A stretch of DNA of 29,871 bases from a virus. Numbering within the stretch: the first letter of the stretch is position 1; every line of letters begins with the position of its first letter. The translations under genes and the position numbers were made by a program. Where the stretch lies: IMG/VR virus record IMGVR_UViG_3300027985_000271, positions 1 to 29,871 of that record; one strand, written 5' to 3'. The notes under the pieces are model-generated. The model searched no databases and had not been told where the DNA came from. It saw nothing but the letters and a program-made list of their open reading frames with translations. This document shows, one piece after another, positions 2,521-10,767 of the stretch.

Positions 2521-2549
2521 TTGGTTTTGCGATGGCGATGCGCTATGCT
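2521..2549 (+). promoter_or_regulatory. Sigma70-like promoter for the RNA element
   Basis: TTGGTT (2521-2526) and TATGCT (2544-2549) are separated by exactly 17 bp. Matches to TTGACA and TATAAT are 3/6 and 4/6, so the score alone is weak. The predicted start, about 7 nt downstream, coincides with the first bases of the structured RNA at 2554. That coincidence is the main support. Confidence 0.45.
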
Positions 2550-2553
2550 GTAA

Positions 2554-2660
2554 TCGCCAAACCTTAAATTTATGAGTGAGCCCCGAGCTGCATACGCGCT
2601 CCCCGACTCATAGGGGAGAAGGTTTGGCGACCTGCGTGTGCAGCTCGGGGCTTTTGTTTT
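2554..2660 (+). ncRNA. Structured RNA with interleaved helices (pseudoknot or terminator/antiterminator switch)
   Basis: Four helices can be read by eye. A: TCGCCAAACCTT (2554-2565) with its exact complement at 2619-2630, 12 bp. B: AGCCCCGAGCTGCA (2579-2592), exactly complementary to 2639-2652, extended through 2598/2633 to 20 pairs including two G-U. C: CTCCCC (2599-2604) with GGGGAG (2613-2618). D: TATGAGT (2571-2577) with ACTCATA (2606-2612), which lies in the loop of C. A encloses D and B encloses C, but A/D and B/C cross. They therefore form either a double pseudoknot or two mutually exclusive folds. B is followed by CTTTTGTTTT. Fewer than ten bases are in no helix. It lies between a promoter-like site and the leader of the primase-helicase gene. 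Confidence 0.6.
2579..2660 (+). terminator. Rho-independent terminator formed by helix B
   Basis: The 20-bp helix B (2579-2598 with 2633-2652) encloses the small hairpin C and is followed by CTTTTGTTTT to 2660, a U-rich tract. The loop (34 nt) is longer than in simple terminators. It ends immediately before AGGAG (2661-2665), the ribosome-binding site of the short ORF coupled to the primase gene, so termination here would shut off replication-gene expression. Confidence 0.55.
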
Positions 2661-2674
2661 AGGAGCCTTGAAAA

Positions 2675-2713
2675 ATGGAAAGCAACAAGAGCACCCTAGG
2701 CGGTGCGGCATGA
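2675..2713 (+). pseudogene. 12-codon leader ORF, probable deletion relic of the gene at 1900-2172
   Basis: AGGAG (2661-2665) precedes ATG 2675, which opens a 12-codon frame (MESNKSTLGGAA) ending in ATGA overlap with the primase start. Its beginning (TGAAAAATG, then AAAGCAACA) matches the start of the gene at 1900. Its end lies in an 18-bp block (2698-2715) identical to 2157-2174, the end of that same gene. It therefore looks like a copy with about 80 codons deleted. It probably still works as a translated leader that brings ribosomes to the primase-helicase start. Confidence 0.55.
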
Positions 2714-2715
2714 GC
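2698..2715 (+). repeat. 18-bp direct repeat with 2157-2174
   Basis: AGGCGGTGCGGCATGAGC occurs here and at 2157-2174. In both places it ends a frame in GGAA-stop and starts the next gene through ATGA. It marks the duplication described for the relic ORF and could support recombination that would delete or duplicate the intervening 541 bp, including the RNA element. Confidence 0.8.
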
Positions 2716-5331
2716 TACTTTCAGAAACAGGGCCGCGCCCTGCTGGCCAACGGTTATCTGATCGTTCCTATCAAGCCGGGGCACAAGCGCCCTGCGCTGT
2801 CTAACTGGCAAACCTCACGCCTTGGCGCGTCCGACCTGTCAGCCTACCCCCATCACGGTGTCGGCATCCTCTGCGGCCAAGGGGCCCACCCCGTCGCCGC
2901 TATCGATATCGACACCACCGACGAAGCCTTGGCGCTGCAGTTCTCCGCGTGGTGTCACGACAACCTGGGCGTGACTGTCGAGCGGGTAGGCAATGCGCCT
3001 AAGGTGCTGCTCGTCTACCGCGCGGCCGAGGCGGGCTGGGGCAAGTGCACCGGCGCATGGTTCGAGGACGAGCTGGGCTTGCCGCATCGCCTGGAGGTGC
3101 TGGGCAAGGGGCAGCAATTCGTCGCCTACCACACGCACCCGGATACCGGAAAGCCTTACGAGTGGACGGACTTCTTCGGCGGGTTGGAGGCGATGCGCGC
3201 GGACGAGTTACCTGTCGTAACGGCGGAGCAGATTACTCTGGCGTTGCGCGTGTTCGAGGAAATGGCCGAGGCGTCGGGCCTGGTGCGCCGCAGTGCGGCG
3301 GAGGCGACCGTGCCGGCGGAGCCGGTAGAGCGTACCCCGCGCGAAGAAGATGACTTCTTTGGCCGGGTCAATGAGTCGGCGCTGCAAGGCCTTGGGTTGT
3401 GGGTGCCGCGGCTCATCCCTTCGGCACGGGAGTATAACGAAGGGTATCGCGTCTCGTCGGTGGACTTGGGGCGCGATCTCGAGGAAGACCTTTCTATTGT
3501 TCCTGACGGCATCGTCGATTTCGGCGTGGCCGACATGGGCGACGAGCGCAAGGGCAAGCGCACTCCGATCGACCTGGTGCTGGAATGGGCGCCGCAGCTG
3601 TTCGACGATCCGCTCGACGCGCCGGTGACGCCTTACGATGCCGCGCTGTGGTTATGCGAGTGCATGGGCACGCCAAAGGAAGATCTGGGCTTCGGCTTGC
3701 GCCGGCAGAAAGAGAAGGCCGCCGAGCGTAGCGCCAAGCGCATCGCGCTCGAGGCGCTGGCCGCCAAGGTGCAAGAGTGCGATGACTCCATCCAGCTGCT
3801 GGACGATGTGGCCAAGGACGCGCGCGAACTGCTGAGGGAAACCCCAGCGCTGCAGGTGGAAGTCGCTGCGCTGCTCAAGCGCCGTTTCCATGAGCTGACC
3901 GGCGTCACCATGCCGCAGGGCGATCTGAATAAGGCCCTGCGTGAGCCGTCGGCCCCCACTGTTAAATCCCGCAGGCCGTTGACCGAGTTCGGCAACGCCG
4001 AGCGCATGCTGGACAAGTACGGCCAAGGGCTGATGTACGTCCCCGAGTTTCAATCGTGGTTTTGCTGGAATGGGATTTATTGGCGCAAGGCGTCTGACGT
4101 GGAAATCGCGCATCTGGCGAAGGAAACCGTCAAAGGCCTGGTGTCCGAGCTGGAGGACCACGAAGCCGCCGAGTTCTTCAAGTTCTGCGCCATTAGCCAG
4201 CGGGCGCAGATGGTGGGCAATATGGTCACACTGGCGCGTTCAGACCCGCGCGTCATGGTGCCGGCAGCCGAGCTCGACAAGCACCAGCACCTGGTCGGGG
4301 CGCTCAATGGCGTGATCGACCTGCATACAGGCGAATTGCTACCCCCCGATCCTGAGTTGCGCATCACCAAAGTAGTGGGCTGCGACTACGACCCTGACGC
4401 GCAGGCGCCTTTGTTCGAGCAGACTGTGCTCGATGTGTTCAACGACGACGCGGAAACCGCCGCCTTTTTCCAGCGGCTGGTGGGCTACACGATGACCGGC
4501 GACCCCAAGGAGGACATCCTGGTCATCCCCCACGGCAATGGCTCTAATGGCAAGTCCACCGTGCTCGGCGCTGTCCGCCGCGCATTTGGTGACTACGCCC
4601 GGGCGGCAGACGCCTCGACATTCGTAAGCGACGGCCGAGGCGGCAATGCCGGAGGCCCACGGGAGGATGTACTGCGGCTGAAGGGGGCGCGCTTCGTCTA
4701 CGTCAACGAACCGGACGAAAACAGCGAGCTACGCGAGGGCTCCGTAAAGGCCATGTCAGGGGGCGATGCGCTGTCGGCGCGGGGGGTGCACGGCAAAGAG
4801 ACGGTGGAGTTTCTGCCGTCGTTTGTGGTGTTCATGCCGACCAACCACAAGCCCATCGTCAAGGGCTCGGACAACGGGATTTGGCGCCGCCTTATGCTGC
4901 TGCCCTTTACACGCAATTTCGAGGCCGATCCGACTATCGTCAAGGACCCCCAGCGTGAGGAAAAGTTGGGGGATGAGCTGCCAGGGATCTTGGCCTGGAT
5001 AGTGCGTGGCGCACTCGCTTATTCGCGCCAGGGTTTGCGCGCGGTAGGCTCGGTTAAGGCGGCACGCGATGCCTACCGGGAGCAGATGGACTTGCTTTCT
5101 GAGTGGCTGGAAGAGTGCTGCGAGGTGGGCGACGGGCTAGCGTCGTCGTCGACGGAGCTGTGGGCGTCGTGGTTTGAGTTCGCAAAAAATCGCGGGTTAC
5201 TGTCGTATGTAAAAAATAGCGTGTCGCTCGGTAGGCGACTCGAATCGCGGTTCCCGATGTTCAAAGGGTCGCGCGGGGTGCGAATGCGCAAAGGATTGCG
5301 GATTCGTGACGATTTCGACGCGTTGGTGTGA
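2710..5331 (+). CDS. PrimPol / D5-type primase-helicase (P4 alpha-like replication protein)
   Basis: An 873-residue replication protein. The N-terminal part has the archaeo-eukaryotic primase (PrimPol) layout: a KPGHKRPAL start region, DID at residues 66-68 as metal-binding pair, and a downstream EVLGKGQQFVAYHTHPD strand with the basic/His catalytic motif. The C-terminal half is a superfamily 3 helicase of the pox D5/P4 type: Walker A GNGSNGKST (609-617), a hydrophobic strand ending in NEPDE as Walker B (about 662-670), FMPTNHKP, and the IWRR arginine-finger region (724-727). Such proteins prime and unwind from their own origin, often beside the gene. ATG 2710 is chosen because it overlaps the leader ORF (ATGA) and precedes the conserved N-terminus; an upstream in-frame extension would run through the terminator. 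Confidence 0.9.
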   Translation: MSYFQKQGRALLANGYLIVPIKPGHKRPALSNWQTSRLGASDLSAYPHHGVGILCGQGAHPVAAIDIDTTDEALALQFSAWCHDNLGVTVERVGNAPKVLLVYRAAEAGWGKCTGAWFEDELGLPHRLEVLGKGQQFVAYHTHPDTGKPYEWTDFFGGLEAMRADELPVVTAEQITLALRVFEEMAEASGLVRRSAAEATVPAEPVERTPREEDDFFGRVNESALQGLGLWVPRLIPSAREYNEGYRVSSVDLGRDLEEDLSIVPDGIVDFGVADMGDERKGKRTPIDLVLEWAPQLFDDPLDAPVTPYDAALWLCECMGTPKEDLGFGLRRQKEKAAERSAKRIALEALAAKVQECDDSIQLLDDVAKDARELLRETPALQVEVAALLKRRFHELTGVTMPQGDLNKALREPSAPTVKSRRPLTEFGNAERMLDKYGQGLMYVPEFQSWFCWNGIYWRKASDVEIAHLAKETVKGLVSELEDHEAAEFFKFCAISQRAQMVGNMVTLARSDPRVMVPAAELDKHQHLVGALNGVIDLHTGELLPPDPELRITKVVGCDYDPDAQAPLFEQTVLDVFNDDAETAAFFQRLVGYTMTGDPKEDILVIPHGNGSNGKSTVLGAVRRAFGDYARAADASTFVSDGRGGNAGGPREDVLRLKGARFVYVNEPDENSELREGSVKAMSGGDALSARGVHGKETVEFLPSFVVFMPTNHKPIVKGSDNGIWRRLMLLPFTRNFEADPTIVKDPQREEKLGDELPGILAWIVRGALAYSRQGLRAVGSVKAARDAYREQMDLLSEWLEECCEVGDGLASSSTELWASWFEFAKNRGLLSYVKNSVSLGRRLESRFPMFKGSRGVRMRKGLRIRDDFDALV

Positions 5332-5357: not shown

Positions 5358-5458
5358 GTGTGGCGGGTGTGGCGGGTTAGGGCCTTTTTTCCATTATTTC
5401 TCTATACGTGTCAGGAAAAAATATGTAAAAAGGCCTCAACCCGCCACACCCGCCACAC
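5358..5458. repeat. Inverted repeat of doubled GTGTGGCGG iterons, candidate replication origin
   Basis: The left arm 5358-5378 is GTGTGGCGG twice in tandem plus GTT. The right arm 5438-5458 is its perfect 21-bp reverse complement. After one mismatch the pairing continues inwards through GGCCTTTTT (5381-5389) and AAAAAGGCC (5427-5435), giving about 32 bp per arm around an AT-rich centre of 37 bp. The T tracts lie on the loop side of the stem, not after it, so this is not an ordinary terminator. Tandem iterons, an AT-rich core and the position beside a P4 alpha-type initiator fit an origin. A strong hairpin ending transcription of the early block is the alternative. Confidence 0.55.
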
Positions 5459-5468
5459 CTAGTTAATT

Positions 5469-6355: not shown

Positions 6356-7921
6356 ATGGCACTTACAAAAGCGCAACTAGCCCGCGCCCTGGAGCTTACC
6401 AGGGAACTGAAACGCCGCCGGCTGTGGTCCCCGCTCGAAGGGCCGCAGACCGATGCGCTGCAATCCGAGGCGGACATCACCGGATTTGGCGGCGCGGCTG
6501 GGGGTGGCAAAACGGATCTAGCCTGCGGCCTTGCGCTGACCAAGCACGAAAAGACCATGATCCTGCGGGAGAACGGCACCGAATTAACCGGTGTCATCGA
6601 CCGTTTGACTGAGCTGCTGGGCGGCCGCGACGGATTTAACGGCCAGGAGAAGATTTGGCGTACGGTTACGCCAGACGGCAAAGCCCGGCAGATTGAGTTC
6701 GGCTCGTACCCGAACCCCGGCGACGAGACGAAGTACCAAGGCCGGCCCCACGACCTGCTGGTCTACGACGAAGCAGCCAACCACCGCGAATCCGCAGTGC
6801 GCTTCCTGATGGGCTGGCTGCGCACAACGACTCCCGGCCAGCGCTGTCGGGCGTTGCTCACCTTCAACCCACCGACCACAGCAGAGGGGCGCTGGATTAT
6901 CGACTTCTTCGGCCCCTGGCTGAACAAGAAACACCCCAATCCCGCCAAGCCTGGCGAGCTGCGCTGGTTCGCAACGATTGCCGGCAAGGATATCGAGGTG
7001 CCAGACAACCGGCCCTTCGTCCTCGTCGGCGAAAAGCGCGTTTACGACTTCGACAAGGCGCAGCACAGACCCGAAGAAATCGTGAAGCCACTGTCGCGCA
7101 CGTTCATCCCGTCGCGCGTTTCGAACAACCCGTACTTGATGGGGACCGGTTACGTGACCACACTGCAAGCTCTGCCGGAGCCGCTGCGCTCCCAAATGCT
7201 CAACGGCGATTTCAACGCAGGCATCCAGGATGACCCTTGGCAGGTTATCCCGACCGCATGGGTCGAGGCCGCTATGGCCCGCTGGCAACCGAAGTTGCCC
7301 AAGCCGCCGATGGACTCAATGGGCGTGGACGTTGCGCGAGGGGGTAAGGACAACACGGTACTGAGCGCACGACACGGCAACTGGTACGATGAACTCATCA
7401 CATACCCAGGCAGCGCAACGCCCAACGGGCCGCAGACTGCGGGCCTTGTCATTGCGGCGACCCGCGATAAGGCGCCCATCCACATCGACGTGATCGGCGT
7501 AGGCTCAAGCCCTTATGACTTCTTGCGTGAAGCCAATCAGCAGGTGATCGGGGTCAACGTTGCGGAAGGCGCAACAGGCACGGACAAGTCAGGCCGGCTA
7601 CGGTTCTTCAACTTGCGCTCCCAGCTGTGGTGGCAGATGCGCGAAGCGCTCGACCCGTCGAGCAATACGGGTATCGCACTGCCTAACGACCCGCGCTTGC
7701 TGGCCGACCTGACAGCGCCCAAGTGGTGTCTGCGGGGGTCTATCGTGCAGGTGGAGAGCCGCGACGAGATTGTGAAGCGCATCGGCCGCTCGCCGGATTA
7801 CGCGTCGGCCGTTATCCTGGCGCAGATGGACACACCGAAGATGGCCGAGATCAAGCGCGCCATGGATATCATCCGCAAGGAAGTGCGCGGAGAATACGAC
7901 CCTTACGACACACTACGCTAA
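6356..7921 (+). CDS. Terminase large subunit
   Basis: A 521-residue packaging motor. ATPase domain: Walker A GAAGGGKT at residues 46-53, Walker B with DLLVYDE at 133-139 (catalytic Glu139), and a coupling-motif region at LLTFNPPTT. Nuclease domain: GVDVARGGKDNT with Asp325 as a metal ligand, further acidic residues downstream (HIDVIGVG) and an SPDYASAVILA end. Length and order match phage large terminases. ATG 6356 is preferred over GTG 6347 because GGTGAGG lies 8 nt before it. It works with the small subunit upstream and the portal downstream, separated by two probable accessory genes. Confidence 0.95.
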   Translation: MALTKAQLARALELTRELKRRRLWSPLEGPQTDALQSEADITGFGGAAGGGKTDLACGLALTKHEKTMILRENGTELTGVIDRLTELLGGRDGFNGQEKIWRTVTPDGKARQIEFGSYPNPGDETKYQGRPHDLLVYDEAANHRESAVRFLMGWLRTTTPGQRCRALLTFNPPTTAEGRWIIDFFGPWLNKKHPNPAKPGELRWFATIAGKDIEVPDNRPFVLVGEKRVYDFDKAQHRPEEIVKPLSRTFIPSRVSNNPYLMGTGYVTTLQALPEPLRSQMLNGDFNAGIQDDPWQVIPTAWVEAAMARWQPKLPKPPMDSMGVDVARGGKDNTVLSARHGNWYDELITYPGSATPNGPQTAGLVIAATRDKAPIHIDVIGVGSSPYDFLREANQQVIGVNVAEGATGTDKSGRLRFFNLRSQLWWQMREALDPSSNTGIALPNDPRLLADLTAPKWCLRGSIVQVESRDEIVKRIGRSPDYASAVILAQMDTPKMAEIKRAMDIIRKEVRGEYDPYDTLR

Positions 7922-7935
7922 CCAAGGAGCAACAC

Positions 7936-8226
7936 ATGGAAAATCAACATCGCAAAATCAAGGGCTATCGCGAATTGAGTCAGGCAGAAATCGACCTGAT
8001 GAACCGCATCAAAGCCAAGGGGGTGGAGTTGTTAGAACTGCAAGCCGAGCTGGTCGCGTCTCTTAACGATTACCAGACGTATCTCACAGTATCCGTAGGA
8101 GATGACGGGGAGGTGCAGAGATTCGAAGCTGCCGAGCCTTTCCGGTGGGCGGCCATCGGCAAAACCGACATCCAGACGGGGATCATGGCCCTGGTTCGTG
8201 CCGTCGCCCAACCCGCGGGCGTCTAG
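7936..8226 (+). CDS. acb2: Acb2-like anti-CBASS cyclic-oligonucleotide sponge
   Basis: A 96-residue protein starting at ATG 7936 behind AAGGAG. The start RKIKGYRELSQAEIDLMNRIK and the end FRWAAIGKTDIQTGIMALVRAVAQP match my recollection of the Acb2 family (DUF7681, related to T4 Vs.4), which binds cyclic di- and trinucleotides and blocks CBASS signalling. Published ligand contacts in the PaMx33 protein, as I remember them, are Tyr11, Lys26 and Arg67. Here Tyr11 and Lys26 fall at exactly these positions, and Arg70 of FRW corresponds to Arg67 after a three-residue insertion. The fold is two helices forming a hairpin, assembling as a hexamer. It lies 14 bp behind the large terminase, so late-operon expression is expected. 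Confidence 0.82.
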   Translation: MENQHRKIKGYRELSQAEIDLMNRIKAKGVELLELQAELVASLNDYQTYLTVSVGDDGEVQRFEAAEPFRWAAIGKTDIQTGIMALVRAVAQPAGV

Positions 8227-8236
8227 TGCACACAAC
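8225..8236 (+). repeat. Boundary box AGTGCACACAAC, copy 1
   Basis: A 12-bp sequence overlapping the acb2 stop, repeated exactly at 13130-13141 and with one change in the last base at 19615-19626. All three copies lie in intergenic gaps directly before a gene start. An extended hairpin follows this copy. Confidence 0.7.
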
Positions 8237-8237
8237 G

Positions 8238-8287
8238 GGGCGCCTTGCGGCTAGGGTGTGTGATATGCCCCAAACCGTGAGGCGCCC
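8238..8287 (+). promoter_or_regulatory. Hairpin enclosing the ribosome-binding site of the GNAT gene
   Basis: GGGCGCCT (8238-8245) pairs with AGGCGCCC (8280-8287). After a TG/TG internal loop, CGG (8248-8250) pairs with CCG (8275-8277). GTGAGG, the only ribosome-binding-site-like sequence before ATG 8290, lies in the 3' arm and would be masked. There is no T tract, so translational control is more likely than termination. Confidence 0.5.
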
Positions 8288-8289
8288 TG

Positions 8290-8739
8290 ATGCAAATCAC
8301 AATTCAACCTTGCGATCACGGCCAGCTACTCGAGCAAATCGGGGAGTTGGCTGTTTGCCATTGGCAAGAGATCGAGACGGAATTCAGCAACCGCGTGCCC
8401 GCGCCACACCGTGAAGTCTACGACGCGATGGCCGCTGCGGGGGCTCTGATTGCCTTCTCGGCTACGGTAGACGGTGCGGTTGTGGGGTATGCATCCGCAT
8501 TTTTGTGCCGGCATCCTCACTACGACATGCTGCTTGGGCAGCACGATACTCTGTACCTGATGCCTGAATTCCGTAACGGGTCCACAGGGTTGCGGCTGAT
8601 GAAGTCCATCGAGCAAGAAGCCTTTGCCCGAGGCGCGGAGCGCATGATGTGGACTGCCAAGCCCGGCAGCGCGTTTGAACGCATTCTGCAAAGCAAGGGC
8701 TACCGTACCGAAGAAACCATTTACTGCAAGGAGTTATAG
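8290..8739 (+). CDS. GNAT-family N-acetyltransferase
   Basis: A 149-residue protein with the GNAT fold order: an N-terminal helix pair, beta strands around GALIAFSATVDGAVVGYASAF, then DTLYLMPEFRNGSTGLRLMK, which is motif A with RNGSTG as the acetyl-CoA pyrophosphate-binding loop (Q/R-x-x-G-x-G/A variant), and a C-terminal AFERILQSKGYRTEETIY (motif B with GY). The closest type I recall is the acetyltransferase found in BPP-1-like and other podoviruses near the portal gene. Substrate unknown; modification of a host protein or toxin is possible. It sits as an insert between terminase/acb2 and portal, with its own boundary box and hairpin. Confidence 0.85.
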   Translation: MQITIQPCDHGQLLEQIGELAVCHWQEIETEFSNRVPAPHREVYDAMAAAGALIAFSATVDGAVVGYASAFLCRHPHYDMLLGQHDTLYLMPEFRNGSTGLRLMKSIEQEAFARGAERMMWTAKPGSAFERILQSKGYRTEETIYCKEL

Positions 8740-8741
8740 CC

Positions 8742-9053
8742 ATGCCAGCAGCAGCAGTTATCGGCGCCGTTGCCGCCGCAGCGGGTACCGCGTACAGTAT
8801 CTACAGCGGTGAGAAGCAGCAAAGCGCGCAGAAGAAAGCCAACCAGCAAGCCCAAGCCAATGCGGCTAAGCAGGCGCAGCAGGCCGAGCAGGAGATCAAC
8901 CGCGCCAATCAGAAATCCCCAGACGTTGGGGCTTTGCTGTCCGCAAACCAGCAACAGTCGCTGTCAGGGCAGTCAGGCACCATGCTCACCGGTTCCCAGG
9001 GTATTGACCCGAACAGCCTGACATTAGGCAAGTCCACACTGCTGGGGGGTTAA
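8742..9053 (+). CDS. Small virion-associated protein with C-terminal TLLGG motif
   Basis: A 103-residue protein: a hydrophobic Ala/Gly-rich N-terminus (residues 4-22), a Gln/Ala/Lys-rich helix, and a C-terminal GTMLTGSQGIDPNSLTLGKS-TLLGG region. This composition, and an N-DPxxLxLGKxTLLG end, recurs in small proteins next to the portal gene in many podoviruses. The role is not established; a minor virion or connector component is likely. AAGGAG (8728-8733) precedes it, and the portal start follows after 4 bp. Confidence 0.65.
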   Translation: MPAAAVIGAVAAAAGTAYSIYSGEKQQSAQKKANQQAQANAAKQAQQAEQEINRANQKSPDVGALLSANQQQSLSGQSGTMLTGSQGIDPNSLTLGKSTLLGG

Positions 9054-9057
9054 GGGC

Positions 9058-10767
9058 ATGGCGATTAAACCGTTAGAAGCGCCGGCCCCGACGAATAGCA
9101 TCCCAACGCGCGACGCCAAAGCCCGCTGGGCGGCATTGCAGGATGAGCGGTCGAGCTGGATTAGCCATTGGCAGGAGATAAGCGATTATCTGCTGCCGCG
9201 CTCCGGCCGGTTCATTTCGTCTGACCGCAACAACGGCGAACGCAAGCACAACAACATTCTGGACTCTACGGGCACACGTTCGCTGCGCATTTTGGCTGCT
9301 GGTCTCATGGCCGGCATGACCAGCCCAGCGCGCCCATGGTTCAGACTGACGACCAACGACCCCGAGCTTGACGAGTCTTCCGGGGTCAAGCTGTGGCTGT
9401 CCGACGTGCAGCGCATGATGCTGATGGTGTTCAGCCGGTCCAACACATACCGCGCCCTGCATTCCGTTTATGAGGAACTGGGCGCTTTCGGCACCGCAGC
9501 GAATATCATCCTCCCCGACTTCGGGCGCGTAATACACAACCAGTCGCTGACGATCGGCGAATACGCCATCGCCACGGACTACCGTGGGCAGGTGAATACG
9601 CTCTATCGGGAATTCGAAATGCGCGTCGGGTCCATGGTGCAGGAATTCGGGATCGACGCTGTATCGTCCACCGTGCGCAACATGTGGAATAGCCGCAAGG
9701 TTGATGCCTGGGTGAAGGTGCTGCACGTCATCGAGCCACGCGCCGAGCGCGATCTATCCAAGCGCGACGCGAAGAACATGCCGTTCCGCTCGGTCTACAT
9801 GGAGATAGGCGCAACTGACGGCAAGTTCCTACGCGAATCGGGGTTCATGCGCTTCCCCGCCGTATGTCCGCGCTGGAACGCCGTTGGCGGCGACATCTAC
9901 GGGAACAGCCCCGCGATGGAAGCCCTGGGCGATATCAAACAGCTGCAGCATGAGCAACTGCGCAAGGCGCAGGGGATTGACTACAAGACCAAACCACCGT
10001 TGCAATTGCCCACCGGCGCCAAGGCCAACATGCTGGACACGCTGCCTGGCGGCCTGTCCTTCGTAGATATGGCGGGGCCATCCCAAGGTATCCGCACGGC
10101 GTTCGAGGTCAATCTTGACCTGTCCCATTTGCTCAACGATATCCAGGACGTGCGCGAGCGCATTAGTTCATGCTTCTACGCCGACCTGTTCCTGATGATG
10201 AGCAACGACACGCGCAGCGGCATTACCGCAACGGAAGTCGCGGAGCGGCATGAGGAAAAGCTGCTGATGCTCGGCCCTGTGCTCGAGCGCCTGCACAACG
10301 AGCTGCTGGACCCGCTGATCGAAATGACCTTCGACCGGATGATTACGGCCGGCGTCGTGCCCCCTGCCCCTGAGGAGCTGAAGGGACGCGAGCTCAACGT
10401 CGAATTCGTGTCCATGCTGGCGCAGGCGCAACGCGCGGTGGCTACCAACAGCGTTGACCGTTATGTGGCCAATCTCGGCACCGTTGCGCAGTTCAAGCCG
10501 GACGTGCTGGACAAGTTCAACGCAGACGAGTGGGCCGACCAATACGCGGATATGTTGGGCGTCGACCCGAAGCTCATTGTCCCGGGCGAGCAGGTTGCCA
10601 TCATTCGCCAGCAGCGCGCGGAGCAGCAGGCCGCAGCGCAACAGGCCGCTGCTATGCAGCAGGGCGCGGACACAGCCAAGGCCTTGAGCCAAGCCAACAC
10701 CGATGGGGCCAACGCCCTGACCGATATCACCCAAATGTTCAGCGGCTACACAACGCCAGGAGCCTGA
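9058..10767 (+). CDS. Portal (head-tail connector) protein
   Basis: A 569-residue portal of the T7/BPP-1 connector type (bacteriophage head-to-tail connecting protein family). Recognisable stretches are DYLLPRSGRF near residue 45, the ILDSTGTRSLRILAAGLMAGMTSP segment, PWFRL, a GAFGTAAN region, and FRSVYMEIG. After these comes the long helical stem and crown, ending in a Gln/Ala-rich coil (about residues 515-545). It forms the dodecameric vertex through which the terminase packages DNA and to which the adaptor and nozzle attach. The length is normal for the family. Confidence 0.92.
   Translation: MAIKPLEAPAPTNSIPTRDAKARWAALQDERSSWISHWQEISDYLLPRSGRFISSDRNNGERKHNNILDSTGTRSLRILAAGLMAGMTSPARPWFRLTTNDPELDESSGVKLWLSDVQRMMLMVFSRSNTYRALHSVYEELGAFGTAANIILPDFGRVIHNQSLTIGEYAIATDYRGQVNTLYREFEMRVGSMVQEFGIDAVSSTVRNMWNSRKVDAWVKVLHVIEPRAERDLSKRDAKNMPFRSVYMEIGATDGKFLRESGFMRFPAVCPRWNAVGGDIYGNSPAMEALGDIKQLQHEQLRKAQGIDYKTKPPLQLPTGAKANMLDTLPGGLSFVDMAGPSQGIRTAFEVNLDLSHLLNDIQDVRERISSCFYADLFLMMSNDTRSGITATEVAERHEEKLLMLGPVLERLHNELLDPLIEMTFDRMITAGVVPPAPEELKGRELNVEFVSMLAQAQRAVATNSVDRYVANLGTVAQFKPDVLDKFNADEWADQYADMLGVDPKLIVPGEQVAIIRQQRAEQQAAAQQAAAMQQGADTAKALSQANTDGANALTDITQMFSGYTTPGA

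Follow-up and report, generated by a model that had tools for sequence, protein, structure and literature searches.

A predicted self-terminating antisense RNA of C4-like plan ahead of a phage primase gene

The window analyzed here, a 29,871-nt stretch of viral DNA (IMG/VR record IMGVR_UViG_3300027985_000271), carries at 2554-2660, ahead of a primase gene, a plus-strand element that probably encodes a C4-like antisense immunity or copy-control RNA serving as its own terminator. With its promoter-like sequence the element occupies 2521-2660, between the stop codon of a small ORF (2517) and the leader ORF of the primase.

Four helices had been drawn in this region by a sequence-only reading, and all of them, including the crossing of A and D with B and C, were found as described. 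Helix A (2554-2565/2619-2630, plus strand) is a perfect 12-bp helix; helix B (2579-2597/2634-2652) has 19 bp including one G-U pair, or 20 bp when the G-U pair 2578-2653 is counted; helix C (2599-2604/2613-2618) has 6 bp, and helix D (2571-2577/2606-2612) has 7 bp. No base is common to any two of them. In the minimum-energy fold, two hairpins branch from a three-way junction closed by stem B: hairpin 1 (2599-2618), formed by helix C, and hairpin 2 (AAGGUUUGGCGACCU, 2619-2633), formed by an extra fifth helix, E (2620-2624/2629-2633), which is made from the 3' arm of helix A. The loop segments of the two hairpins correspond to the 3' arms of helices D and A, which makes B+C a compact RNA with two antisense segments, b' in the loop of hairpin 1 (GACUCAUA, 2605-2612) and a' in hairpin 2 (2619-2630). 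The complements of both lie directly upstream as a1, the 5' arm of helix A (TCGCCAAACCTT, 2554-2565) at the predicted RNA start, and b1, the 5' arm of helix D (TATGAGT, 2571-2577). Downstream, the U tract TTTTGTTTT (2652-2660), whose first T is also the last base of B, is the predicted end of an intrinsic terminator. Both loops have a YUNR-type U-turn motif, and UUGGCG, the loop of hairpin 2 (2620-2633), resembles the target loop of the IncI/IncB plasmid antisense RNAs (RNAI).

The plus strand of 2521-2715 folds at -92.2 kcal/mol, compared to -63.7 ± 4.4 kcal/mol for shuffled sequences (z = -6.4, 0 of 200), and the core 2575-2660 gave a z of -9.1 (0 of 200 shuffles). When minimum-energy folds were computed for a growing transcript of the window, A+D was present up to approximately position 2642 and B+C+E from approximately 2646. 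This switch is predicted for each of the 26 aligned members of the family described below, with 6 to 9 of 9 A pairs in a transcript ending past hairpin 2, and B with no A pair in the full-length one; these are equilibrium, pseudoknot-free folds, with kinetics outside their scope. In the window b1 ends 1 nt short of stem B while its partner loop lies beyond approximately 20 bp of B, and b1 abuts the stem base across the family; D and B are therefore mutually exclusive in one molecule. After the switch, at least b' has no nearby partner in cis, which would leave the loops free for other molecules. The two-state idea of the sequence-only reading is supported. In a classical attenuator the antiterminator uses bases of the terminator stem, whereas here the A/D arms and the B arms have none in common; terminator and antiterminator therefore do not compete for the same nucleotides, and B could in principle form around A, which counts against the C4-like reading.

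The promoter-like pair TTGGTT (2521-2526) and TATGCT (2544-2549), separated by 17 nt, is weak by itself, with 7 of 12 consensus matches and a score under the threshold of the promoter scanner. It sits, however, where the other members have a -10-like box: the -10-like hexamer picked as best within 3 to 9 nt lies 5 to 7 nt ahead of the a1 field in the 26 aligned members, often with TG just upstream. The start near helix A given by the earlier reading is supported. The first reading also holds for the ribosome-binding site AGGAG (2661-2665), 9 nt ahead of the ATG at 2675, and for the 12-codon leader ORF MESNKSTLGGAA (2675-2713), which overlaps the primase start (2710) in the sequence ATGA. The gene that follows (2710-5331), presumably the regulated one, encodes a primase-polymerase/D5-type helicase of 873 aa (Pfam D5_N, 2.4e-31, and Prim-Pol, 1e-8; PHROG DNA primase, 3e-150), closest to its counterparts in Bordetella phage BPP-1, Burkholderia phage BcepC6B and Acinetobacter phage 4316. 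An exact 18-bp direct repeat, AGGCGGTGCGGCATGAGC, is found at 2157-2174 and 2698-2715, at the ends of two ORFs, and brackets the segment with the RNA element, and this segment looks like an insertion separating an older ORF from the start of the primase. Just past the primase gene, at approximately 5359-5460, lies a long inverted repeat (GTGTGGCGGGTGTGGCGGGTTAGGGCCTTTTTT ... AAAAAGGCCTCAACCCGCCACACCCGCCACAC), probably a two-way terminator, and a stretch approximately 70% identical to it also follows the primase homolog in locus L012.

About 50 loci in phage contigs, many of them near-identical, share the plan of the window element: a -10-like box, then a1 (GCCAAACC) where the RNA is predicted to start, followed by b1, a stem of approximately 20 bp, two hairpins and often a U tract. 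The stem changes freely in sequence and encloses one hairpin whose loop pairs with b1 and another that pairs with a1. U tracts like that of the window are present in Burkholderia phage JC1 and in loci L109, L120, L171, L174 and L175. A first search of viral contigs with the helix-A core as the pattern returned loci with the same layout and unrelated stems. A second pattern, in which a1 was not asked for, gave 39 loci, about 32 of them real, with a1 at the expected place in every full-length one; each of the 26 members in the alignment has a1 as well. L168, L171, L173, L174 and L175 were added by a third pattern and the covariance model R1. The member count leans on these patterns, which also imposed part of the sequence conservation of the family (GGTTTGGCG, within a'). 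Matches discarded as due to chance were L110, L112, L114-L117, L119, L121-L123, L133, L135, L145, L151, L154-L156, L169, L170, L172, L178-L182, L184, L187, L189, L192 and L193. The window scores 69.6 bits against R1 (E = 2.8e-18), by construction since it belongs to the seed; JC1, to which BLAST with the L142 element led, lies outside the seed and is confirmed by R1 at 62.9 bits.

The element stands directly ahead of a primase-like ORF in L109 and 0.4 kb ahead of a close homolog of the window primase in L118. Other close relatives of this primase have other sequences at its place: BLAST of the window upstream region against approximately 100 primase-relative loci revealed no homologous element, R1 later found one in a single locus of these (L029, on the same contig as L118) and class 2 elements, defined below, in several more, and most nearby relatives lack it. 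BLAST of the element against phages and plasmids matched only its primase end, with nothing in plasmids, the upstream protein used as bait yielded no further loci, and Rfam gave nothing relevant for the window and eleven other element loci. Two small genome surveys were also made: no copy was detected in 399 genomes of the order Burkholderiales, where the model search under strict filters shows little and the pattern gave one chance match, and 61 genomes belonging to the same genus as a Burkholderia sp. isolate gave one real copy, L176, identical to that of L142 over the matched stretch. In loci L013, L015, L016 and L014, from three MAGs labelled Clostridia, Aeriscardovia and Eggerthellaceae and a Vreelandella genome, R1 matches one and the same element, equal in score and position, which suggests contamination of the MAGs by one prophage. 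The RNA family is widespread and apparently undescribed.

A match of R1 at E = 3e-4 in other primase relatives revealed a second class. Its a1 is CGCCAGCC and its hairpin 2 has the conserved sequence GGCUGGCG, while class 1 has GGUUUGGCG, each with a matching a1; its loop 1 is UUUUGCG(G) against b1 (C)CGCA, and CGCCAGCC recurs as a2, a second complement of hairpin 2, adjoining the start codon. The pair b1/b' has about 10 variants, which change as matched sets between relatives.

Covariation was determined from 26 structure-anchored rows in place of a MAFFT alignment, in which the stems were misaligned. In these rows, which include many close relatives, 99.6% of 512 cells of stem B are paired and 20 positions have changed on both sides, compared to 59% paired after whole 3' arms were swapped between rows. 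Helix D, which has changes on both strands at 6 of its 7 positions, is paired in 99.3% of cells, compared to 73% with swapped arms, figures slightly favored by right-justifying b1 to the stem and choosing a loop offset of 1 or 2 nt. Ten diverse representatives still gave 20 such positions for B and 6 for D, and the 5' arm of B in the window is just 20 to 44% identical to theirs. In the tool controls, A, D and hairpin 1 together were 97.5% paired versus 87.7% in shuffles (0 of 500), and D alone was likewise matched by 0 of 500 shuffles. Helix A is nearly invariant within class 1, partly because GGTTTGGCG was fixed by the search, and changes on both strands between the two classes. Compensatory changes, the check proposed along with the helices, are thus strong in B and D and are found in A between classes.

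We also looked for the complements of the two loops downstream of the stem. An a2 of at least 6 nt is present in 21 of 26 members, in all 21 at or adjoining the first ATG after the stem, and 15 of 26 have at least 9 nt, up to 13 nt; shuffled tails reached these lengths in 11% and 0.2% of cases, respectively. L146 uses another part of hairpin 2 for the pairing with a2, and L137 departs from the consensus in hairpin 2 and a2 together. There is no a2 in the window (longest match, 4 nt), L109, L120, L142 and L157, nor is one seen by eye in JC1, and the 26 members have no complement of loop 1 (b2) of 6 nt or more. The primase start ATGAG (2710-2714) is complementary to five bases of loop 1 (CTCAT), a match too short to weigh, although it lies where a b2-like contact would be expected. 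The 29.9 kb of the window, a contig that is itself a fragment, contain no second copy of a1/b1. With neither a2 nor a second a1/b1, the only trans target seen here is the element itself, and for the window copy the case for action in trans draws on the family and on analogy.

Most elements precede phage primase genes, of the PriCT_2/AAA_25, AEP-TOTE, VapE-like, D5_N and Prim-Pol types, and other members precede DNA methyltransferases or a helicase-methyltransferase. Two are followed by antirepressor genes with a KilAC (ANT) domain, L142 (AntA+ANT) and L173 (Rha+ANT). In JC1 the element lies ahead of an operon of a helicase, a replication initiator and a DnaC-like protein; the JC1 paper describes a conserved ORF heading that cluster and, in the passages searched, does not mention this RNA. 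Lysogens of JC1 exist (PMC9144972).

The sequence-only reading knew of no described RNA family with this plan. This holds for Rfam, as above, but not for the plan itself, since the C4 RNAs of phages P1 and P7 (Rfam RF01695, RF03163) have the same nested order a1-b1-[b'-a']. In P1 C4, a1 and b1 lie upstream of a long stem, a hairpin bearing b' and a segment a', and the next ribosome-binding site carries a2/b2. The window element likewise has a long stem closing two hairpins and a'/b' loops complementary to upstream a1/b1; its downstream gene is a primase, not an antirepressor operon, and the C4-like target in the start region, a2, is a feature of many relatives and not of the window, as is the antirepressor gene of L142 and L173. 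Variation of the loops fits as well, as specificity in P1/P7 is set by the C4 loops (PMC5320573, PMC12197685). Unlike C4, the new family has a' within the second hairpin, b1 abutting the stem, a predicted RNA start at a1, often a U tract after the stem, no b2, and mostly replication genes following it in place of icd/ant; the stem base of the window reads GAGCCCC, with no evident GGW site for RNase P of the kind described for C4. The RF01695 covariance model matched neither the window (E ≤ 10) nor 2400-2800 (E ≤ 5) nor the other members; R1 gave only noise on P1 c4 and no match in the P4 cI region (7400-9200, filters off). Because no Rfam model matches the element, and R1 matches neither P1 C4 nor P4 cI, we consider the RNA C4-like in its working and not a member of C4. 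The string GGUUUGGC is common to the c4-a1b1 consensus and the new family, on opposite partners, and the two may be distant homologs or convergent.

Few phage immunity systems are known to consist of RNA, C4 of P1/P7 and CI of P4 among them. In satellite phage P4, CI RNA confers immunity by premature termination upstream of the alpha primase-helicase, so that the new family resembles it in RNA immunity logic and in having a primase-helicase as the controlled gene; CI, however, is processed from a longer leader and is not known to be a terminator hairpin itself. The plasmid initiator genes repC of pT181 and repR of pIP501 offer a third parallel, in which an antisense RNA turns the leader of the gene into a terminator and so controls copy number. 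Those systems use a counter-transcribed antisense RNA and a base-sharing antiterminator, whereas the new family needs no opposite-strand gene and its two folds share no bases.

Could the switch work in cis only, sensing a phage or host protein, transcription speed or ribosome position, with the released RNA as a by-product? Two-state folding is intrinsic to one molecule, and termination alone may matter in the window, which has no a2. We nonetheless consider this unlikely, given that the short loop and single-strand complements change as matched sets, as expected for pairing specificity and not for ligand binding, that no conserved sequence resembles a ligand pocket, and that a2 in 21 of 26 members and antirepressor genes downstream of two, as in P1, point beyond a switch. 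A plain intrinsic terminator between two phage operons, with the upstream complements as a side effect, would account for a stable hairpin and U tract right behind a gene cluster; it is made very improbable by the 74-nt stem structure, in which two enclosed hairpins have loops that pair, in every member, with sites upstream, by the covariation of D, and by several members that have poor U tracts and keep all else.

The DNA cruciform or origin beside the replication initiator that had been offered as an alternative is scarcely credible: it has in its favor the position beside PrimPol genes, but the stem sequences are unrelated between members, the helices of the 26 members are kept with G-U pairs in 44 cells versus A-C in 3, the -10-like box, U tract and start-codon target are all on one strand, and the element also occurs ahead of antirepressor genes. 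The G-U excess instead indicates an RNA of the plus strand, and the initial view of an RNA with a 3' U tract is supported. A stable double pseudoknot containing all four helices at once, the other alternative raised, is barely credible, for although no base is needed by two helices, steric constraints keep D and B from forming in the same molecule and b1 abuts the stem family-wide.

For the C4-like RNA that terminates itself, we propose the following mechanism. Transcription would start beside a1, and as a1, b1, the 5' arm of B and hairpins 1 and 2 emerge, A+D would fold with the 5' arm of B held in a loop, favoring read-through into the leader ORF and primase. Once the 3' arm of B is made, B+C+E would win and RNA polymerase would stop at the U tract, releasing an RNA of approximately 100 nt with both loops, b' and a', exposed. 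The loops suggest a trans-acting possibility that the earlier reading did not contain: they may bind a1 and b1 of other nascent transcripts, from the prophage or a superinfecting phage, and thereby block A+D and cause termination there, so that the primase would stay off once the RNA had accumulated. In many relatives, hairpin 2 could also cover the start codon through a2 and block translation.

Our judgment is evenly balanced on a wider proposal, that these widespread elements are phage immunity RNAs that terminate themselves and whose terminator hairpin is the trans repressor, that the two loops define heteroimmunity groups, and that the released RNA terminates transcripts carrying the same a1/b1, giving RNA-only autoregulation of replication genes and, in relatives, of antirepressors. 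The new family shows the logic of C4 and CI with unrelated sequence, mostly ahead of phage primase genes of several types. The element offers a compact natural two-state terminator with swappable specificity, and with about ten matched sets of loops and targets, RNA-coded immunity groups could be predicted from sequence.
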